64,000 bases of DNA, from the NCBI RefSeq assembly GCF_014205155.1, contig NZ_JACHMX010000001.1:4278001-4342000 (forward strand), given 5' to 3'. Made by a program: the position numbers and the translations under genes. Every line of letters starts with the position of its first letter. Position 1 is the first letter of the stretch. A model generated the notes under the pieces. The model worked only from the letters and a program-made list of their open reading frames with translations, made no database searches and had not been told where the DNA came from. Below, one piece after another: positions 38,768 through 61,752 of this stretch. The stretch is from Amycolatopsis umgeniensis (GTDB lineage: Bacteria; Actinomycetota; Actinomycetes; Mycobacteriales; Pseudonocardiaceae).

Positions 38768-39227
38768 CGCGGATCAGTTCCTCCTTCTTGTCTTCCTGAA
38801 TTTCCTGCCGCAGCAACTTGGTGAGGGCGGGGAGCGCGGCTTCGATCGCGGCGCGGTCGATTTCGTCCAGCTCGATGAGCCGCTCGCGGAGGAATTCCTC
38901 CCTGGCGACGATCAACTGACGATGGAAGCGTTGCCCCACCTCGGTGACCTCGACGAGCACGGCCCGGCCGTCGGCGGGGTCGGGACGGCGGCTGACCAGG
39001 CCGAGCCGCTCGAGACGGCGGACGACGTCGGTCATCGTCGGCATCCGGACCCGTTCCAGCTCGGCGAGCGCGCTCATCCGGCGCGGACCGCCGTTCAGCA
39101 GCTCCGACAGCACCGAACCCTGGGTGAGGGTGAGCTGCACCTGCGGGGTCTCCCGGCGGACCAGGTAGTACAGCCGGAACACCAGCGGGCGGAGCCGGTG
39201 GGCGAGGTCGGCGGCTTTCATGGTCAC
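38757..39227 (-). CDS. MarR-family transcriptional regulator (156 aa)
   Basis: A winged-helix MarR protein. Helix-turn-helix region LTQGSVLSELLNGGPRRMSA with ELERVRMPTMTDVVRRLER, and the wing SRRPDPADGRAVLVEVTEVG. GTG 39227 or ATG 39221 may start the protein; neither has a ribosome site, so the mRNA may be leaderless. A 13-bp-arm inverted repeat (39226-39265) overlaps the start and is the probable operator. It also lies in front of the divergent HAD gene, whose expression it might affect. Confidence 0.9.
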   Translation of the reverse strand: MTMKAADLAHRLRPLVFRLYYLVRRETPQVQLTLTQGSVLSELLNGGPRRMSALAELERVRMPTMTDVVRRLERLGLVSRRPDPADGRAVLVEVTEVGQRFHRQLIVAREEFLRERLIELDEIDRAAIEAALPALTKLLRQEIQEDKKEELIRDER

Positions 39228-39265
39228 TTAGCCATGCTAACTAAAATTACTGAGCATGGCTAAGT
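39226..39265. promoter_or_regulatory. Probable MarR operator
   Basis: Arms ACTTAGCCATGCT (39226-39238) and AGCATGGCTAAGT (39253-39265) are perfect complements around an AT-rich 14-nt centre. It straddles the MarR start and the divergent intergenic region. Confidence 0.7.
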
Positions 39266-39304: not shown

Positions 39305-40003
39305 GTGGAAGCGGTGATCTTCGATCTCGACGGTGTCCTGGTGGATTCGGAAAAGATGTGGGACGAGGTCCGGCGGGCGGTGGCCCACGAGTTCCACGGC
39401 ACCTGGCGGGACGAGTCGACCAGGGCGATGCAGGGGATGAGCACCCCGGAATGGGCCGCCTACCTGGCGCACGACCTCGGCGTCCAGCTCCGGCCGTCGG
39501 ATGTCGCGCAGGTGGTGGTCGAGCGGATGGCGCGCCGGTACGCGGAGAAGCCGCCGATCATCCCCGGCGGTCCCGACGTCGTGCGCGAAGTCGCGAAGCA
39601 CTGGCCGGTGGCGATCGCGAGTTCGTCGCCGCCGCTGCTGATCAAGGCGTTCCTGGACATCACGCGGCTGCCGGTGCCGACGGCGGTGTCCTCGGAGCAG
39701 GTCGGCGCGGGGAACACCAAAACCCGGAAAATGCACACCAATGGAGTAGAGCTCGAAGGCAAGGGCAAGCCGGCACCAGATGTGTACTTGTACGCCGCTG
39801 ACCTGCTCGGAGTCGATCCGAAACAGTGCGCGGCGGTCGAAGACTCCACCAATGGCCTGAAAGCCGCGATAGCGGCTGGCATGACGGTGTTCGCCGTGCC
39901 CAACCCGCACTTTCCGCCTGACCCCGACGTCCTCAAGCGAGTCACGGTGCTGTCGAGCATCACCGAGCTTCCGACAGCGTTGAAGTCACTACCCGACGCC
40001 TAA
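39305..40003 (+). CDS. HAD-family phosphatase; probable prophage attachment gene with phage-encoded 3' half
   Basis: A HAD superfamily (beta-phosphoglucomutase-like) hydrolase of 232 residues. Motif I is VIFDLDGVLVDSE, motif II ASSSPP, motif III the Lys in GKPAPDVYLYAADL, and motif IV VEDSTNGLKAA. Between VSSEQVGAG and GKPAPD, where relatives run on directly, about 17 residues are inserted (NTKTRKMHTNGVELEG). By hand count about 10 of the first 136 codons end in A or T, against about 25 of the 96 from 39713 on. The stop overlaps the convergent phage gene by 4 nt. I infer that the first part is host and the last third was supplied by the prophage, restoring a working gene. TAGGCT 7 nt before GTG 39305 suggests a leaderless mRNA. 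Confidence 0.85.
   Translation: MEAVIFDLDGVLVDSEKMWDEVRRAVAHEFHGTWRDESTRAMQGMSTPEWAAYLAHDLGVQLRPSDVAQVVVERMARRYAEKPPIIPGGPDVVREVAKHWPVAIASSSPPLLIKAFLDITRLPVPTAVSSEQVGAGNTKTRKMHTNGVELEGKGKPAPDVYLYAADLLGVDPKQCAAVEDSTNGLKAAIAAGMTVFAVPNPHFPPDPDVLKRVTVLSSITELPTALKSLPDA
39713..39763. other. Candidate attL / host-phage junction
   Basis: This 51-bp in-frame segment codes for the extra 17 or so residues in the HAD protein and is strikingly A-rich compared with the sequence before it. The change in codon usage falls at its left edge. It is the most likely place for the attachment-site arm left by integration. No second copy is available in the window to define the core. Confidence 0.5.
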
Positions 40004-40491
40004 CCCGCGCGTCGGCGAAGCTGTCGGGCCGCGTATCTCCGAAGATCACCGAGCGACCGCGGCGAACGACCGCGGATCTGCTTGCCGATCTCGCGATACT
40101 CGGACGTAGACAGGTCGACCACACGGACATAGAGCGTCCGCGGGTCAACGACGAGTTGTTCTGCGATCTCGCCGGGATCATCGGACCAGAGCAGCGCGTC
40201 GGCGAGTTCGGGAACGATGATCAGCCGGCGGGCGGCGATAGCGTGCACGCGCCGCTCGAGTCGGCTATCGAGCCACGCCACACCGCAGTAGCCGAGGACG
40301 TCATCGCGCCGCTCGTGGTGGACGATTTCGTGCGCAACAGTGCACCGCGCTTCGGCCTGGTGCAGGATCGGGTGCACCCGAATCCGGCCACCGCCGTAGT
40401 CGCCCCACCCTGTCACGGCGGACGACACGATCACCTCGGCGCCGAGCACTTCGGCGTGCCGGTACGGGTCGTAGACACGGCCCCATTCCAT
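40000..40491 (-). CDS. ImmA/IrrE-family metallo-endopeptidase (163 aa)
   Basis: A zinc peptidase with the HExxH motif in TVAHEIVHHERR near the middle. In ICEBs1 and related phages, ImmA cleaves the partner repressor to trigger induction. Here it lies directly downstream of the repressor gene in the same direction, which supports that role. The C-terminal segment SRLERRVHAIAARRLIIV carries the third metal-ligand region seen in the family (acidic Glu). Its stop overlaps the end of the convergent HAD gene by 4 nt. Confidence 0.88.
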   Translation of the reverse strand: MEWGRVYDPYRHAEVLGAEVIVSSAVTGWGDYGGGRIRVHPILHQAEARCTVAHEIVHHERRDDVLGYCGVAWLDSRLERRVHAIAARRLIIVPELADALLWSDDPGEIAEQLVVDPRTLYVRVVDLSTSEYREIGKQIRGRSPRSLGDLRRYAARQLRRRAG

Positions 40492-41161: not shown

Positions 41162-41422
41162 GTGACATCGCACGTACGTATCCGACCGGATGCGTTGAGC
41201 AAGATTGCCACTGCGAAAGGGCTGCGATCGCGGTACGCGCTCGCGAAGTGCCTCGGCATGAGTCAGTCCACCGTCGGGCGGGTGCTCGACGGTGAGCAGT
41301 GGCCCGGAAACGAGTTCATCGCCGCAACCATCAACGGACTCGGCATCACGTTCGACACGGTTTTCGAGGTCACCGGTGGTGACGTCGCCTCGACGCCCGA
41401 GTGCTCCGGGGTGGCCGGATGA
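41162..41422 (+). CDS. Cro-like helix-turn-helix protein (86 aa)
   Basis: A small XRE-type DNA-binding protein: ALSKIATAKGLRSRYALAKC then LGMSQSTVGRVLDGEQWPG. It is divergent from the repressor across the operator region and is first in the rightward operon, the position of Cro. The GTG start at 41162 follows GGAGGGGAAC. The stop overlaps the exonuclease start by 4 nt. Confidence 0.8.
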   Translation: MTSHVRIRPDALSKIATAKGLRSRYALAKCLGMSQSTVGRVLDGEQWPGNEFIAATINGLGITFDTVFEVTGGDVASTPECSGVAG

Positions 41423-42324
41423 GCGCCGCCGCTGTTCGCGTAGGCACGTTCGAGCCAGGTTCGGCCGAGTGGTTCGCCGCTCGCGCGTCCGCCCTCGGCG
41501 GTTCCGAGGTAGCGGCGGTGCTCGGCCTCTCGCCGTGGGAGAGCCGGTTTTCTCTCTGGCACAAGAAGAAGGGCAGCACCGGGCCGACCGATGACAACGA
41601 CGTCATGCGGTGGGGTCGCTGGCTCGAGGAGCCGATCGCCCGCGCGTTCGCCGCGGCACATCCCGAGTACCGCGTGCGCCGATCCGGGACATGGGCCAGT
41701 CGGGCGCGCCGGTGGCAGGTGGCAACACCTGATCGGTTGCTGTCCAGTCTGACCGCGCGCGCATTGCTCGAGGTCAAGACCGCGCACAACACGGACGAGT
41801 GGGGCGAACCGGGTACCGACGAGGTGCCGATCTACTACCGGACGCAGGCCCTGTGGCAGCTCGACACGCTCGGCCTGTCCCGCGCGCACATCGCCGTGTT
41901 GATCTCCGGGTCGGACTACCGCGAGTACGTCGTCGACTGGAACATCGCCGAGGTTTCCGTGCTCCGCGACGCCGCCCGCGAATTCCTCGACACCCTCGAG
42001 CGCGACGAACGCCCGGACATCGACGAGCACACCGCGACGTACCGGACGGTGCGCGCACTGCACCCGCTCATCGACGACGTCGAGATCGAGATCGCTCCAA
42101 CGCTTGCCGAGCGCTACCGCACCGCGGTCGCCGAGCACAAGGCCGCCGAGAACGCCAAGCGTCGCGCGGCCGCCGAAGTGCTCGACGCGCTCGGCTCCGG
42201 CCGGCGCGCCGTAGTCGCCTGCGAGTCCATCGCGATTCGCGTACCGGGCACTGGCGACTCGCCGCCGTCGCTGCGCCCGTCTCCCATCCGTTCGACACCG
42301 CAGAAGGTGAGCGCCGCAGCATGA
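41419..42324 (+). CDS. YqaJ-family phage exonuclease (301 aa)
   Basis: A lambda-exonuclease-type nuclease that resects DNA ends for single-strand annealing. The N-terminal motif GGSEVAAVLGLSPWESRF is diagnostic of YqaJ. The PD-(D/E)xK centre is TPDRLL with LLEVKTAH (D, then ExK), and EVPIYYRTQALWQL is the conserved helix after it. The tail is helical and basic. It works with the RecT protein encoded immediately downstream (ATGA overlap). Confidence 0.92.
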   Translation: MSAAAVRVGTFEPGSAEWFAARASALGGSEVAAVLGLSPWESRFSLWHKKKGSTGPTDDNDVMRWGRWLEEPIARAFAAAHPEYRVRRSGTWASRARRWQVATPDRLLSSLTARALLEVKTAHNTDEWGEPGTDEVPIYYRTQALWQLDTLGLSRAHIAVLISGSDYREYVVDWNIAEVSVLRDAAREFLDTLERDERPDIDEHTATYRTVRALHPLIDDVEIEIAPTLAERYRTAVAEHKAAENAKRRAAAEVLDALGSGRRAVVACESIAIRVPGTGDSPPSLRPSPIRSTPQKVSAAA

Positions 42325-43130
42325 CCACTCAGACCGTCACGTCGGCCGTCGCGCAGCAGCGGGACAGCTCGCCGGCCGCGCTGGTGCGCAAGTACCGCAC
42401 AGACTTCGCGACCGTGCTTCCCAGCCACATCAAGCCCGAGACGTGGCTGCGTATCGCTACCGGTGCCCTGCGCCGGAGTCCGCAGCTCGCGCACGCCGCG
42501 GAGAAGAACCCGACATCGTTGCTCGTCGCGCTTCTCGATGCCGCGCGCAAGGGGCTCGAGCCGGGCACGGAGCAGTACTACCTAGTGCCGCGCAAGACCA
42601 AGCGCGGTCCCGAGGTCCTCGGCATCACCGGGTATCAGGGCGAGGTGGAACTCATGTACCGGGCCGGCGCGGTGTCCTCGGTCAAGGTCGAAGTGGTGCG
42701 CGAACACGACACCTTCGCCTACAACCCGGGCGAGCACGACCGGCCGGTGCACGAGATCAACTGGCGCGCCGACCGCGGCGACCTGGTGCTCGCCTACGCG
42801 TACGCGAAGATGCGCGACGGGGCGACGAGCAACGTCTCGGTGCTCTCCGCCGACGACATCGCCGTCATTCTGTCCAAGGCCGAGGGCGCCGACTCGCCGT
42901 TCTCGCCGTGGCAGTGGAACCCCAAGGCGATGTGGCTCAAGTCGGCCGCGCACCAGCTCGCGAAGTGGGTGCCGACCAGCGCCGAGCGCGTCTGGCAGCC
43001 CGACGGGCCGCCGCCCGAGGTGCCGCCGGCCGCGCCGGTCATCCTGCCCACTACTGAGGACGTCGTCGACGCCGAAGTCGTCGACGACTGGCCAACCGCG
43101 CCGGCGGACACCGCGGACGGTGAGCGATGA
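42321..43130 (+). CDS. recT: RecT-family single-strand annealing protein (269 aa)
   Basis: Anneals complementary single strands made by the partner exonuclease. Family features are the N-terminal LPSHIKPETWLRIATGALRR, the core KGLEPGTEQYYLVPRK followed by GITGYQGEVELMYRAG, and the PWQWNPKAMWLKSAAHQLAK segment. The C-terminus is acidic and proline-rich, as in many phage RecT proteins. It overlaps genes on both sides by 4 nt. Confidence 0.93.
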   Translation: MTTQTVTSAVAQQRDSSPAALVRKYRTDFATVLPSHIKPETWLRIATGALRRSPQLAHAAEKNPTSLLVALLDAARKGLEPGTEQYYLVPRKTKRGPEVLGITGYQGEVELMYRAGAVSSVKVEVVREHDTFAYNPGEHDRPVHEINWRADRGDLVLAYAYAKMRDGATSNVSVLSADDIAVILSKAEGADSPFSPWQWNPKAMWLKSAAHQLAKWVPTSAERVWQPDGPPPEVPPAAPVILPTTEDVVDAEVVDDWPTAPADTADGER

Positions 43131-49391: not shown

Positions 49392-50645
49392 ATGCCGGTC
49401 AATCTGCCGTTGTCTGCGGTTCAGGTCGAATCGATGCGCGAGTCGCGTGCCCGGGTGAACATCTGGTCGGGCGCCATCCGGTCCGGCAAGACCATCGCGA
49501 GCCTGTTACGCTGGTTGATCTACGTCGCGCACGCGCCCCGCGGTGGACAACTCGTCGTTGTCGGCCGCACTCGCGACTCGGTCGCGCGCAACGTGTTCGC
49601 GCCACTGCAAGACCCGACTCTCTTCGGCGCGGTCGCCGATCACGTCCGCTACACCGCCGGCGCCCCGTCCGGCTGGATTCTCGGCCGGCAAGTGTTCGTG
49701 CTCGGCGCGTCCGACAGCAAGGCCGAGAAGGTCTTGCGGGGGCTCACGTGCGCCGGCGCGTACGTCGACGAGGTGACCGTCGTTGCCCGGGAATTCTTCA
49801 AGCAGTTACTAGGCCGGATGTCGGTTCCAGGCGCGCAACTGTTCGGCACCACTAACCCAGACAACCCTGCGCATTGGCTGAAACACGACTACCTCGACCG
49901 GCTCGCCGAGCTGCCCGACTGGCGCTCGTTCGCGTTCACCCTCGACGACAACCCCTCGTTGTCCGCCGAATACCGGGCGAGCATCCGCCGTGAGTACACC
50001 GGCTTGTGGTTCCGTCGGTTCATCCTCGGCGAGTGGGTCGCCGCTGAGGGCGCCGTGTTCGACATGTGGGAGCCTGGCCGGCACGTCGTGCCGTGGGCCG
50101 AGCTGCCCGACCTGCGGCGCCTGCTCGCCGCCGGCGTCGACTACGGAACCACGAACGCAACCGCGGCCCTGCTGCTCGGCCTCGGCGCCGACGACCGGCT
50201 GTACTTGGTCGACGAGTGGCGCCACGACCCCGCGCACGCGCGGACCCGGCTCACCGACTCCCAGCTCGCCGCCGGACTGCGCGAGTGGCTCGACCTCGAC
50301 CACCACCCGCGCCAGCAGGGCCGGCCAGAGTTCGTCGTCGTCGACCCGGCCGCCGCGTCGTTCCGGGTGCAACTCCAGTCCGACGGCGTGCTCACCCAAG
50401 CCGCCGACAACGACGTCGCCTACGGCATCCGGACCGTGTCGAGCCTGCTCGCCGAGGACCGGTTGCGCGTGGCCGATCGGTGCCGAGGCTTCATCGCCGA
50501 GGTACCCGGCTACTCGTGGGACGACAAAGCGACCGCCGCCGGCGAGGACAAGCCGATCAAGATCGCTGATCACTCGCTCGACGGCGGCCGCTACGCCGTG
50601 ACAACTACTGAGGCGCTCTGGCGGCCTGCTCTCGCCTCCGCTTGA
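49392..50645 (+). CDS. Terminase large subunit (417 aa)
   Basis: The packaging motor and nuclease. Walker A is GAIRSGKT (residues 27-34) and Walker B VDEV in GAYVDEVTVV, with the coupling motif GTTNPDNP. The C-terminal RNase H-like nuclease starts at GVDYGTTNATA, then VVVDPAAASF, and has the later acidic residue near SLDGGRYA. The ATG at 49392 is followed by a complete ORF with no disruption. It resembles PBSX/SPP1-type (terminase_3-like) large subunits. Confidence 0.93.
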   Translation: MPVNLPLSAVQVESMRESRARVNIWSGAIRSGKTIASLLRWLIYVAHAPRGGQLVVVGRTRDSVARNVFAPLQDPTLFGAVADHVRYTAGAPSGWILGRQVFVLGASDSKAEKVLRGLTCAGAYVDEVTVVAREFFKQLLGRMSVPGAQLFGTTNPDNPAHWLKHDYLDRLAELPDWRSFAFTLDDNPSLSAEYRASIRREYTGLWFRRFILGEWVAAEGAVFDMWEPGRHVVPWAELPDLRRLLAAGVDYGTTNATAALLLGLGADDRLYLVDEWRHDPAHARTRLTDSQLAAGLREWLDLDHHPRQQGRPEFVVVDPAAASFRVQLQSDGVLTQAADNDVAYGIRTVSSLLAEDRLRVADRCRGFIAEVPGYSWDDKATAAGEDKPIKIADHSLDGGRYAVTTTEALWRPALASA

Positions 50646-53996: not shown

Positions 53997-54123
53997 CTTT
54001 GACCCCTCTCAATCGCAGCCCGACGCCTGAAGATCGCTACCCGGTTGCACACTGTTACCGATTGGTTCATTACACGATAGTCACGACTCCCAGCTCGGCG
54101 CGTTGACGAATTGGGGGCTGCCG

Positions 54124-56193
54124 ATGCCGTGGAAGCCCCCACTCGAGGTTGACGCTGCCGACGTCGTCGAGCAGCTCGCCGCGGACATCCTCGCCCTGTA
54201 CACGCAGGCCGAGGCGCGGTTGCTCGGCGACATCGCCCGCCGGGTCCGCGCCGAGCAGGACGTGCCCGAATGGGCCGCGCAGAAAACCGCCGCGGCGCGC
54301 GAGCTTCGGCTCGCCGCCGAGCGGATCGCTACCCAGGTCACCGGGCAGGCAGGCCAGGCGGCCGCCGATTCCGTGTTCGCCGCGTGGCAGGCCGGCGCCG
54401 AGCAGGGGCTCGCGCAGCTCGCCGAACTCGGCGCGCTGTCGTCCGAGCAGCTCGAGCAGCTCGCCGGCGTAGTGCCCGGAATGCAGGCGGCCGCCATCCT
54501 CGCCGCGGACCTCACCAGCCGACTCGAAGCGCTGCCGCTGCGCGTCTTGCGCTGGCAGCAGGACGCCTATCAAACAGCGGTCGCCGCCACGGCGCCCGAT
54601 CAGTTGCTCGGTACCAGCACGATCCACTCGGCGCAGCGTGCCGCGTGGGATCGTCTCGCCGCGCAAGGCGTGACCGGGTTCGTTGACCGCGCCGGCCGCG
54701 ACTGGAACCTCGCGAGCTACGTCGAGATGGCCGTGCGCACCGCGACCGGGCGCGCGTGGAACGACGGTCACCTCGCCCGGATGGCCTCCGCCGGCGTCGA
54801 GCTGGTCACGATCGCCCGCTCGCGTCATGCCTGCCGACTCTGTACCCGCTGGGAAGGGCGGGTGTTGGCGCTGTCCGGCCCGCCCGGCGAGCGCCAGGTC
54901 GAGCACACCCTCACCGACGAGACGGTCTCCGTCGACGTCGCCGCCACCGTCGAGCAGGCGCGGCTCGAGGGGCTCATGCACCCGAACTGTCGGCATCAGT
55001 TCGTGCCCTATCTGCCGGGCGTGACCAAGCTCGACGAGATTCGCGAGCACGACGCCAAGGCCGAGCAGGACCGCGAAGACCTGCGCGCGCTCGAGCGCAA
55101 GGTGCGCCGGAACAAGCGCAAGGCCGCGGCCGCGCTCACCGACGACGAGCGCCAGGCCGCCGAGCGTCGGGTGCGCGAAACGCAAGCCGAGATCCGCGAG
55201 CATGTGAAGCGGACCGGGCTCAACCGCAAGCGCTACCGCGAGCAGGTCAACCTCGGACACGGCGACCTGCGGGCCGCCGAGCGCCGGCGCGACCAGCTCG
55301 CCGACCAGGTCACCGAAGGCAGCGCCGAGCAGAACCGGCTCGACGCCATCGACGACGAACAGGCCCGCCGGCGCGCGGCCGAGCGGCTCGCCGCGGAGAA
55401 GGCCGCGGCCGACAACGCCATCGCCGACGCGCTCGCCGCGCAGCACCGCACGCCGGCCGAGCTGAGCGACGACGAACTCGCCGTCGCCGACCGAGCGTTC
55501 GCCGAGCGCGCCGAGTTGCTCGGCAAGCCCGGCCAGGTCAGCCGGACACACCAGGCCGTACGCGACGAGATCGAACGGCGCGCCGCGCCGCCGGCCGCGT
55601 CGGGCGACCTACGGGAGCTGTCCGACGAGCAGCTCGCCGACCGGCTCGCCGAAGTCGGCGACGACGAGGAGGCCGTCGAGGCAGTAATCGCCGAGCTGGA
55701 GCGGCGCGAAGCCGACCAGCAGTACGCCGACGCGGTCGCCGACGAGCCGGACGCCGAGAAGTGGGCCGAGGTCGACCGGCTCGTCGAGACCGGTCTCGAC
55801 TACGAGCAGGCGTACGCCGAGGTGTTCGACAAGGACGTCGAGAAGATGCGTCGCGAGGACGCCATCGCCCGACTTCGACGCGAGGGCTACCGCGGCCGCG
55901 GATTCGACGAACTCGCGCGCGCTGCCTATGCCGATCGCCTCGAACGCGACTACTTCGCCGCCGAGGCCGCTACAAACGGGTTCCTGCTCACGCGGGAAGG
56001 GCAGCAGGGCGGGCTCGATCCGCGGAACCTGTGGCGCCAGAACGAGAATTACGCGCGCCGGTGGGCGTCCGACGAGTTGAAGCAGTGGTGGGACGAAAAC
56101 GGTAGGGTCACGTTCGACCAGTTCGCCGACGAGTTGCTCGACGGCGGCAACGGAGAACGGTTCCGCACCGGGGGTGAGTCGTGGCAACAGTGA
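54124..56193 (+). CDS. Phage minor capsid protein (MuF/min_cap2-like), 689 aa
   Basis: A head-assembly protein placed after the portal as usual. The first 300 residues have the minor capsid core, including SRHACRLCTRWEGRVLALSG with a CxxC pair and a GLMHPNCRHQFVPYLPG motif (C and H typical of this domain). A long, charged, helical region (residues about 320-560) follows, full of Glu/Arg/Ala with coiled-coil pattern. An acidic C-terminal domain ends FDQFADELLDGG. The length is above average for the family, so an extra injected or toxin-like C-terminal domain is possible. ATG 54124 follows GGGGGC; a TTG at 54103 is less likely. Confidence 0.82.
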   Translation: MPWKPPLEVDAADVVEQLAADILALYTQAEARLLGDIARRVRAEQDVPEWAAQKTAAARELRLAAERIATQVTGQAGQAAADSVFAAWQAGAEQGLAQLAELGALSSEQLEQLAGVVPGMQAAAILAADLTSRLEALPLRVLRWQQDAYQTAVAATAPDQLLGTSTIHSAQRAAWDRLAAQGVTGFVDRAGRDWNLASYVEMAVRTATGRAWNDGHLARMASAGVELVTIARSRHACRLCTRWEGRVLALSGPPGERQVEHTLTDETVSVDVAATVEQARLEGLMHPNCRHQFVPYLPGVTKLDEIREHDAKAEQDREDLRALERKVRRNKRKAAAALTDDERQAAERRVRETQAEIREHVKRTGLNRKRYREQVNLGHGDLRAAERRRDQLADQVTEGSAEQNRLDAIDDEQARRRAAERLAAEKAAADNAIADALAAQHRTPAELSDDELAVADRAFAERAELLGKPGQVSRTHQAVRDEIERRAAPPAASGDLRELSDEQLADRLAEVGDDEEAVEAVIAELERREADQQYADAVADEPDAEKWAEVDRLVETGLDYEQAYAEVFDKDVEKMRREDAIARLRREGYRGRGFDELARAAYADRLERDYFAAEAATNGFLLTREGQQGGLDPRNLWRQNENYARRWASDELKQWWDENGRVTFDQFADELLDGGNGERFRTGGESWQQ

Positions 56194-57785: not shown

Positions 57786-58790
57786 ATGCCCGTGACCTTG
57801 GCCGAAGCCAAGAACAACGCACAGACCGACTACGACCCGGCCGTGATCGACGAGTTCCGAAAAGAGTCGGCGATCCTCGACTCGCTGATCTTCGACGACG
57901 TCGTCAACCCCTCCGGTGGAGGCGCAACCCTCACCTACGGATACCGCCGGCTGATCACACAGCCCACCGCGGATTTCCGCGCGCTCAACTCCGAGTACGC
58001 GCCGCAGAACGTCACCACCGCGCCGTTTTCTGTCAACTTGGCTGTACTCGGTGGCGCTTTTGAGGTCGACCGGGTCATCGCCAAGGTTGGCCCTGCCGCG
58101 TCCGCCGCGGTGTCGTTGAACATGTCGCAGAAGATCAAGGCCGCGAACACCCGATTTCAGGACGCGGTGATCAACGGCGACACCGCCGTCGACACCAACG
58201 GGTTCGACGGGCTCGACAAGGCGCTCGTGGGCTCCACCACGGAGTTTCGCGCCGGCCAGGTCACCGACTGGACCGACTTCGACACCAACGCGCGCGCCGA
58301 GCACAAGGCGCTCGACGCCGTCGACGAGTTCCTCTCGCTGCTCGACGGCACGCCGTCGGTGGTCATCGGGAACGCGAAGTCGCTTGCTCGAGTCCGGGCG
58401 GCCGCGCGCCGCGCCGGCATGTACACCCGCGACCCGGTCGAGGGGCTGATCGGCGTCAACGGCCGGCCGGTGGTCCGCGAGACCTACGGCGGGGTGCTGC
58501 TCGTCGACGCCGGCGCGAAGGCCGGCACGAACAACCCGATCGTGCCGATTCTCGGCCGGACCGTGGGCGGCACCGCGGCGACCGGGCTCACCGACTTGTA
58601 CGCCTACCGCGTGGGGCTCGACGGGTTCCACGGGGTCGCGACCGTCGGCACGCAGCTCGTCGAGAGCTGGCTGCCCGACTTCACCGTCGCCGGCGCGGTC
58701 AAGAAGGGCGAGGTGGAGCTCGGCCCGGTCGCCGTCGCGCTCAAGGCCACGAAGGCGGCCGCCGTCTTCCGCAACATCAAGGTGCAGTGA
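57786..58790 (+). CDS. Major capsid protein, HK97-fold (334 aa)
   Basis: The main head subunit. The N-terminal arm (AEAKNNAQTDYDPAVIDEFR) is followed by a strand-rich core (TYGYRRLITQPTADFRALNS, FSVNLAVLGGAFEVDRVIAK) and the helix SRFQDAVINGD-like segment (here NTRFQDAVINGDTAVDTNGF). The axial domain includes VIGNAKSLARVRAAARRAGM. This is the order of E-loop and P-domain elements in HK97-like capsids of actinophages. ATG 57786 follows AGGAGAG. It is probably the most highly expressed late gene. Confidence 0.92.
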   Translation: MPVTLAEAKNNAQTDYDPAVIDEFRKESAILDSLIFDDVVNPSGGGATLTYGYRRLITQPTADFRALNSEYAPQNVTTAPFSVNLAVLGGAFEVDRVIAKVGPAASAAVSLNMSQKIKAANTRFQDAVINGDTAVDTNGFDGLDKALVGSTTEFRAGQVTDWTDFDTNARAEHKALDAVDEFLSLLDGTPSVVIGNAKSLARVRAAARRAGMYTRDPVEGLIGVNGRPVVRETYGGVLLVDAGAKAGTNNPIVPILGRTVGGTAATGLTDLYAYRVGLDGFHGVATVGTQLVESWLPDFTVAGAVKKGEVELGPVAVALKATKAAAVFRNIKVQ

Positions 58791-61230: not shown

Positions 61231-61752
61231 ATGGCTTTACGGTCCATGCTCGCCAGCGATTGGGCGCTCGACGTCGACACGGCCGCTAGCGGCGCCACTG
61301 CTCCACAGTGGACGCCGGTTCGTGGCCTGTCGAACTTCTCGGAGAGCACCGACGACAACACCGAGGACGACTCGACCAACGACGCGCCCGGTTGGGGCGC
61401 GGACGTCATCACGCAGCGGAAATGGAAGGTCGAGGCCGAGGGCAAGCGCAAGCGCGACACCGCGGCAACCGCCTACACCTCCGACCCCGGACAGGAGTTC
61501 ATCCGCAAGGCCGCGCGCAAGGTCGGTTTCTCGGCCGACGTGCACGTGCGGTGGTACCGCCGCGACGGCTCGCCGGACGCGTCCGAGGGCTACGCGCAGG
61601 TGTCCGAGTTCACCAAGGGCGGCGAAACGACCGACCTCGAGCCGTTTAACTTCACGTTGCTGGGCCAGGGCGAACCGCTCGAGATCGCCAATCCCGTGAC
61701 CACGCCACCGGCCGGCGGTGCCTCGGTCACATCGACGGGCGGGGGTAAGTGA
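61231..61752 (+). CDS. Major tail protein (173 aa)
   Basis: Forms the tail tube. It opens ALRSMLASDWALDVDTAASG, then WTPVRGLSNFSESTDDNTED, the typical opening of actinophage tail-tube proteins (marking a beta sandwich), with EGKRKRDTAATAYTSDPGQE and VSEFTKGGETTDLEPFNFTL later. The C-terminus is a Pro/Gly/Ser linker. It precedes the tail assembly chaperones as expected. Stop 61752 overlaps the chaperone ATG by 1 nt. Confidence 0.88.
   Translation: MALRSMLASDWALDVDTAASGATAPQWTPVRGLSNFSESTDDNTEDDSTNDAPGWGADVITQRKWKVEAEGKRKRDTAATAYTSDPGQEFIRKAARKVGFSADVHVRWYRRDGSPDASEGYAQVSEFTKGGETTDLEPFNFTLLGQGEPLEIANPVTTPPAGGASVTSTGGGK

Follow-up and report, generated by a model that had tools for sequence, protein, structure and literature searches.

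A serine-integrase prophage within a HAD phosphatase gene of Amycolatopsis umgeniensis that appears to supply an in-frame replacement for the displaced 3' end

The DNA analysed here (the window) comprises 64,000 nucleotides, bases 4278001–4342000 of the 9.2-Mb single-contig genome of Amycolatopsis umgeniensis. It contains a HAD phosphatase gene, the named close relatives of which are from Amycolatopsis, and within this gene a prophage of 42,228 bp is inserted. The open reading frame of the gene (39305–40003, plus strand; positions are those of the window unless otherwise indicated) is open across the left junction, attL, and encodes 232 amino acids. On its upstream side, the gene is divergent from a MarR–MFS pair. 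A perfect inverted repeat with 12-bp arms lies between the MarR and HAD genes (39227–39264) and is kept in relatives. This palindrome was matched once in the window and in none of 100 shuffles, and it is probably a MarR operator that would control both directions.

On the other side, the phage genes start at 40000 with a gene of a metallo-protease family (40000–40491, minus strand; phrog_87), a homologue of which, 87% identical, is found at the attL of a prophage in another genome, G054 (see below). It is followed by a helix-turn-helix phage repressor (40526–41017, minus strand; PF01381, phrog_3949), a YqaJ-like recombinase (41401–42324, plus strand; PF09588) and an open frame with a RecT domain, the listed start of which may be too early (41799–43130, plus strand; PF03837). 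The terminase large subunit (49392–50645; phrog_2, PF03237), a head morphogenesis or minor head protein (54103–56193; phrog_12049, phrog_581), the major head protein (57786–58790; phrog_212) and the major tail protein (61231–61752; phrog_3884) are all encoded on the plus strand. The phage genes, which also include an endolysin, continue past the window to the right junction, attR. No tRNA genes were found in the 64-kb window by ARAGORN. The initial annotation had noted that the stop codon of the HAD gene overlaps the first phage gene by 4 nt and had taken this spacing as that of co-evolved phage genes. The overlap is real, but the phage gene is on the minus strand and converges on the HAD gene, and the arrangement is not of the operon type.

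The 232-residue product scored 65.6 bits against the HAD-IA variant 3 model TIGR01509, above the cut-off of 29.4, and 95.2 bits against the hexitol phosphatase HxpB (YniC) equivalog, below its cut-off of 191. The closest solved structures are YniC/HxpB, of which 1te2 is the nearest, and the beta-phosphoglucomutases. The reading frame is made up of three segments: an N-terminal half of 136 codons (39305–39712, plus strand), in which 133 of 135 residues are identical to those of the relative P0125; an insert of seventeen codons, NTKTRKMHTNGVELEGK (39713–39763, plus strand); and a C-terminal tail of 79 codons and the stop (39764–40003, plus strand). The numbers of codons ending in A or T are 10 of 136, 6 of 17 and 19 of 79 in the three segments, respectively, which reproduces exactly the contrast of 10/136 and 25/96 that had been counted by hand in the initial annotation (Fisher p = 0.00014). 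In the C-terminal halves of 35 relatives, such codons make up 8.3% on average (range 0–16.5%), and the difference between the C- and N-terminal halves is 16.7 points in the chimera versus at most 7.6 in those 35 genes. The compositional switch had been placed at about 39713; this is exactly the first base of codon 137, which falls within the pentanucleotide GGGAA at 39710–39714.

The 17-residue length proposed for the in-frame insertion was likewise borne out by comparison with uninterrupted genes of the genus. Forty rows were compared by eye, leaving 35 distinct genes after removal of duplicates, and the insert was absent from all 35, which read ...SEQV[GD]AGKPAPD without interruption. (The HAD protein has matches in 79 of 80 genus genomes; the reading of the insert position covers the loci that were fetched.) The insert was also absent from 69 other aligned homologues; in three of these, the aligner had set two residues at that position. 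By their motifs, the lysine of GKPAPD, directly after the insert, and the catalytic aspartates would be the active-site residues.

If the prophage had split the gene, the original C-terminus should be left as an orphan fragment past the right end of the prophage, as the initial annotation had suggested. When the whole 232-residue protein was compared with its own genome, ten matches were obtained, corresponding to the gene itself, distant family members of no more than 49% identity, and one fragment, in which residues 151–229 were matched at 73% identity (genome positions 4359929–4360165). This fragment is the displaced host 3' end (genome 4359938–4360165; L010 4939–5166, plus strand), located on the same strand as the gene, about 42 kb downstream and 17.9 kb outside the window, at the far junction. 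The att site is thus inside a protein gene that has its original 3' end at the other end of the prophage. The GGGAA of attL is repeated at attR (genome 4359938–4359942), and there is no longer exact match between the two junctions. By BLASTN, no extended exact repeat was found on the two sides of the prophage; the matches were the two tails, 71% identical, and a chance match of 13 bases. The sites attB and attP share this very short core, GGGAA, and are otherwise different. When the host flanks were joined at GGGAA, the result was a gap-free protein of 210 amino acids, 94–98% identical to its best 12 matches and 97.6% identical to P0125 in an alignment of 209 residues.

Comparison of the two C-terminal ends indicated different origins. 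The displaced tail is identical to P0125, the same relative as for the N-terminal half, in 71 of 75 residues, while the tail now present in the gene is 76% identical to the displaced tail (57/75) and 73–78% identical to the listed members of the P0125 clade. Synonymous divergence (NG86) from 18 orientalis-type relatives was 0.13–0.29 for the N-terminal half and 0.23–0.42 for the displaced tail. (The N-terminal row of L012, misaligned by a two-residue difference, was disregarded.) For the present tail, dS from the same relatives was 1.39–3.14 with dN/dS of 0.07–0.15, and dS was lower, 0.81–1.62, from 16 mediterranei-type relatives, with dN/dS of 0.17–0.37. These dS values are near saturation, which makes the ratios rough, and dN/dS includes the time before capture; it was well below 1, at 0.07–0.37, in all 35 comparisons with relatives. 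These identities and dS values indicate that codons 1–136 and the displaced tail are parts of one host gene, and that the present tail is foreign, yet constrained like a protein. The earlier proposal that the prophage supplies a replacement 3' end is upheld by this foreign tail.

The displaced tail adjoins the gene for a 508-residue large serine recombinase (L010 3383–4909, minus strand), the start codon of which lies some 30 bp from the core of attR. The protein contains the domains PF00239 (Resolvase; 85.2 bits) and PF07508 (Recombinase; 25.4 bits, cut-off 21.1), and a recombinase of about 500 residues with these two domains thus lies beside the att site. Relatives of the integrase were found in 14 of 80 genus genomes (E ≤ 1e-30), 24 of 390 family genomes (E ≤ 1e-80) and one of 397 order genomes (E ≤ 1e-150), each count including the genome of the window itself. 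A search of genome_contigs with the integrase as the query gave 22 pattern matches and no confirmed relatives. In a phage collection, 786 records matched, all at less than 60% identity, the best among the 15 listed being 38%. The single match to the integrase in viral_contigs (L070) was identical to the window prophage in 9,668 of 9,668 compared bases; the IMG/VR record, a contig of 44,053 bp of what is likely the same prophage, probably derives from the same genome, and would then provide no independent test of the assembly.

Near the right end, the prophage contains two NUDIX genes, a thymidylate-kinase-like gene and a B12-binding radical-SAM gene (L009 9045–11679 and L010 2622–3179, minus strand), possibly a set of nucleotide-related cargo. 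Immediately outside attR (L010 5176–8760), the encoded proteins include a phosphorylase-superfamily domain, DUF7768 and an oxidoreductase fold. A BLASTN comparison of the 1.9 kb beyond the displaced tail gave no matches in the loci of nine relatives, and this flank may vary among relatives.

Within the 80 genus genomes, the closest relative of the integrase (55% identical) is that of the G054 prophage. This element resembles the window prophage in its integrase, its first gene and its attachment arms, but it is integrated in the MFS gene that neighbours the HAD gene, and it has no HAD tail. (The G054 junctions, L057 17045–17164 and L058 12845–13957, split the MFS gene at about codon 38, with residues 1–40 on the integrase side and 35–405 at the other end.) When the P' arm of the G054 prophage was aligned with the DNA of the insert at the crossover, 26 of 42 bases agreed; at this single offset, none of 20,000 shuffles reached that value. 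The agreement fades beyond about 40 bases. The P arms of the two prophages agree in 21 of 30 bases. In G054, the P' arm runs directly into the metallo-protease gene. Since the arms match and G054 lacks the HAD tail, the 17-residue insert, left unexplained in the initial annotation, is the P' arm of the phage attP, translated in frame, and the HAD tail is an additional segment that separates attP from the first phage gene. The bases presumed to be central are AA in the window prophage and TC in that of G054, as would be required by different targets. The P'-arm DNA pattern had no exact matches in viral_contigs or genome_contigs, and the first-gene query was matched in two of 23 genomes. Apart from the window prophage, far junctions were located for the G054 element and for one in genome G252, neither of which carries a homologous replacement end.

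The P'-arm match also bears on whether the gene is simply an insertion variant of the HAD family unlinked to the prophage, or the product of a mis-assembly. Nothing was found in favor of such an explanation, which would also have to accommodate the native tail displaced to the other end of the prophage, the reconstruction of an intact empty site and the identical IMG/VR record, for what a record probably from the same genome is worth, and we regard it as scarcely credible.

The insert and tail are found at the same place in two more proteins, P0123 (232 residues, from a JGI contig) and P0153 (231 residues, from Amycolatopsis sp. NPDC051061), which are the best two of 44 matches to the insert region. 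The organism that harbors P0153 also encodes an integrase 83% identical to that of the window (P0004), probably on the same contig as P0153. Among the proteins compared, the insert was not seen in any from a relative known to be free of the prophage, which would have spoken against a phage origin. The N-terminal half of P0153 belongs to another host clade, with 131 of 135 residues identical to P0162 versus 95 of 136 to the window protein, and a single clade of the three N-terminal halves was rejected (p = 0.00016). A single clade of the three C-terminal halves was not rejected (p = 0.32). Between P0153 and the window chimera (P0001), the linker is identical in 13 of 17 residues and the tail in 59 of 78, and both frames are open.

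These proteins could in principle reflect several independent captures, each phage at the HAD site having taken its tail from the local host. Consistent with this, the nearest match of the P0153 tail is P0218, a protein from the host clade of P0153 (63 of 75 residues), rather than the window tail, and in the free C-half tree the P0153 tail falls within that clade, the three tails remaining ungrouped. On the other hand, the junction LEGK|GKPAPD is common to the insert-bearing proteins, their linkers are similar, and Tyr163 is present in all three of their tails and in none of the 69 others. We therefore think repeated capture improbable, though a serious contender. Both sets of observations could be accommodated by one capture followed by recombination with host tails. 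We read the data as one capture of the HAD tail, after which the P0153 line may have recombined; because of the affinity of the P0153 tail to its own host clade and the ungrouped C-half tree, a single capture is not proven.

Taken as a whole, the observations favor, with a probability of about 0.85, a temperate serine-integrase phage that replaces the HAD 3' end with its own copy and keeps a single open frame. The chimera is still open as one protein because the phage carries the missing end of the gene in frame. Alternatively, host DNA beside attP may have been picked up by imprecise excision, the open frame being a matter of luck with no selected function. The G054 prophage integrates without a tail, so the tail is not needed for integration, and an in-frame joining is by itself not very improbable. 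Against such an accident, the frame has been kept in three proteins despite a diverged linker and tail, and the low dN/dS of the phage tail in every comparison, although it partly predates capture, points in the same direction. We consider an accidental capture unlikely.

In the favored replacement by the phage's own copy, the integrase would recombine attP with an attB inside the HAD gene, just ahead of GKPAPD. The phage carries a foreign copy of the last 79 HAD codons behind the P' arm of attP, presumably stemming from one capture by an ancestor of the phage lineage, and the single open frame after integration joins the host N-terminal half, the P' arm as a 17-residue loop, and the phage C-terminal half. 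This frame keeps the 5' region of the host gene, and the host 3' end has been moved to attR beside the integrase. If expressed and active, the chimera would spare lysogens the loss of the enzyme, and excision would rejoin the displaced end and restore the native gene. From the gene order, the circular phage would have the repressor, the metallo-protease, the HAD tail (antisense to both), attP and the integrase in succession, and integration would also part the integrase from the run of repressor, metallo-protease and HAD tail.

Phage 21 and e14, cited as precedents in the initial annotation, use tyrosine integrases. Integrases that target sites within genes are described as usually having an attP that carries replacement sequence, and for tyrosine integrases, of which those at icd are an example, identity blocks can reach about 250 bp (PMC10111431). 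In the same text, the E. coli icd prophages (phage 21, e14 and 50icd) lie inside a protein gene, the 3' sequence of which is replaced from the attP side, and the target stays functional (PMC10111431); the window chimera is alike in arrangement and may likewise be functional. The likeness to the precedent lies in the homologous, in-frame C-terminus supplied by phage DNA; the enzyme and the junctions differ. The integrase of the window prophage is a large serine recombinase, not a tyrosine integrase, the attL and attR junctions share a 5-bp core and no long stretch of identity, the tail differs by 24% at the protein level, and the product retains 17 codons of attachment arm.

Target disruption is what the serine-integrase studies consulted describe. 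In Mycobacterium abscessus, three serine-integrase sites are disrupted, with cores of 5–8 bp; Bxb1 in groEL1 and the M. abscessus prophages MabI/MabJ resemble the window prophage in having a serine integrase, a site inside an open reading frame and a short core, but their reading frame is reported as disrupted (PMC8092301). Disruption is likewise described for all 29 streptococcal ICEs of one serine-integrase survey (PMC4701971) and for serine-integrase IMEs (PMC5704250), and a large survey calls the target genes "disrupted" (PMC10083194). In streptococcal rumA elements, a serine integrase also changes the C-terminus of the target; this is reported to be a swap with the 3' part of the integrase gene itself, with a shifted frame and no homologous replacement (PMC4701971). 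The tools mu1/6 and pSAM2 are named as restoring their targets in a further source (PMC12924846). Among the titles and abstract openings listed from the open-licence literature, none described an element that combines a serine integrase with a homologous replacement of the gene end.

Elements in sigK or comK are known for regulated gene integrity, in which the target is off in the lysogen and on again after excision. A similar switch for the HAD gene would agree with the broken targets of serine-integrase elements in the surveys consulted. In the integrated state, however, the target frame reads unbroken through attL into a complete homologous C-terminal half, and the same architecture recurs in other proteins; we consider such regulation very unlikely.

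A predicted model of the chimera has a mean pLDDT of 87.4, compared to 92.1 for an intact relative, and retains the fold, with the same secondary-structure elements in order and one helix that extends into the low-confidence insert. A flexible loop directly before the active-site lysine could be harmful to catalysis. The genome also contains a HAD paralogue with 49% identity, so that the enzyme might be dispensable.

Serine integrases are in standard use for the genome engineering of actinomycetes. More tentatively, and with somewhat less than an even chance of being correct, it might be proposed that serine-integrase phages escape gene disruption by translating an attachment arm. The P' arm would then be doubly constrained, as integrase-binding DNA and as a protein loop, and lysogens would have chimeric enzymes with C-terminal halves from other species, their activity possibly changed. 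If true, there would be a second route to harmless integration, in which the target is kept open by a translated attachment arm that leads into a diverged end of 79 codons; one stretch of DNA would serve as both recombination site and protein loop; and phages would exchange halves of host proteins between species.

The MarR–MFS–HAD locus looks like a landing hotspot for the integrase family of the window prophage. In G252, the MFS gene lies next to a MarR gene and is split at about codon 26 by an element of about 10 kb, the integrase of which is 61% identical (L071 965–1461 and L101 from about 1505); the MFS gene is apparently truncated in both G054 and G252. Elsewhere in G252 (L093/L100; G252:C19:26304-28569), the gene for a second related integrase (56% identical) and a homologue of the first phage gene (65% identical) are separated by about 350 bp, with their 3' ends facing, an arrangement different from that in the window prophage. 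Amycolatopsis sp. NPDC051045 has a 64% identical integrase (P0005) and an uninterrupted HAD gene (P0188), and perhaps carries another element near the HAD locus.
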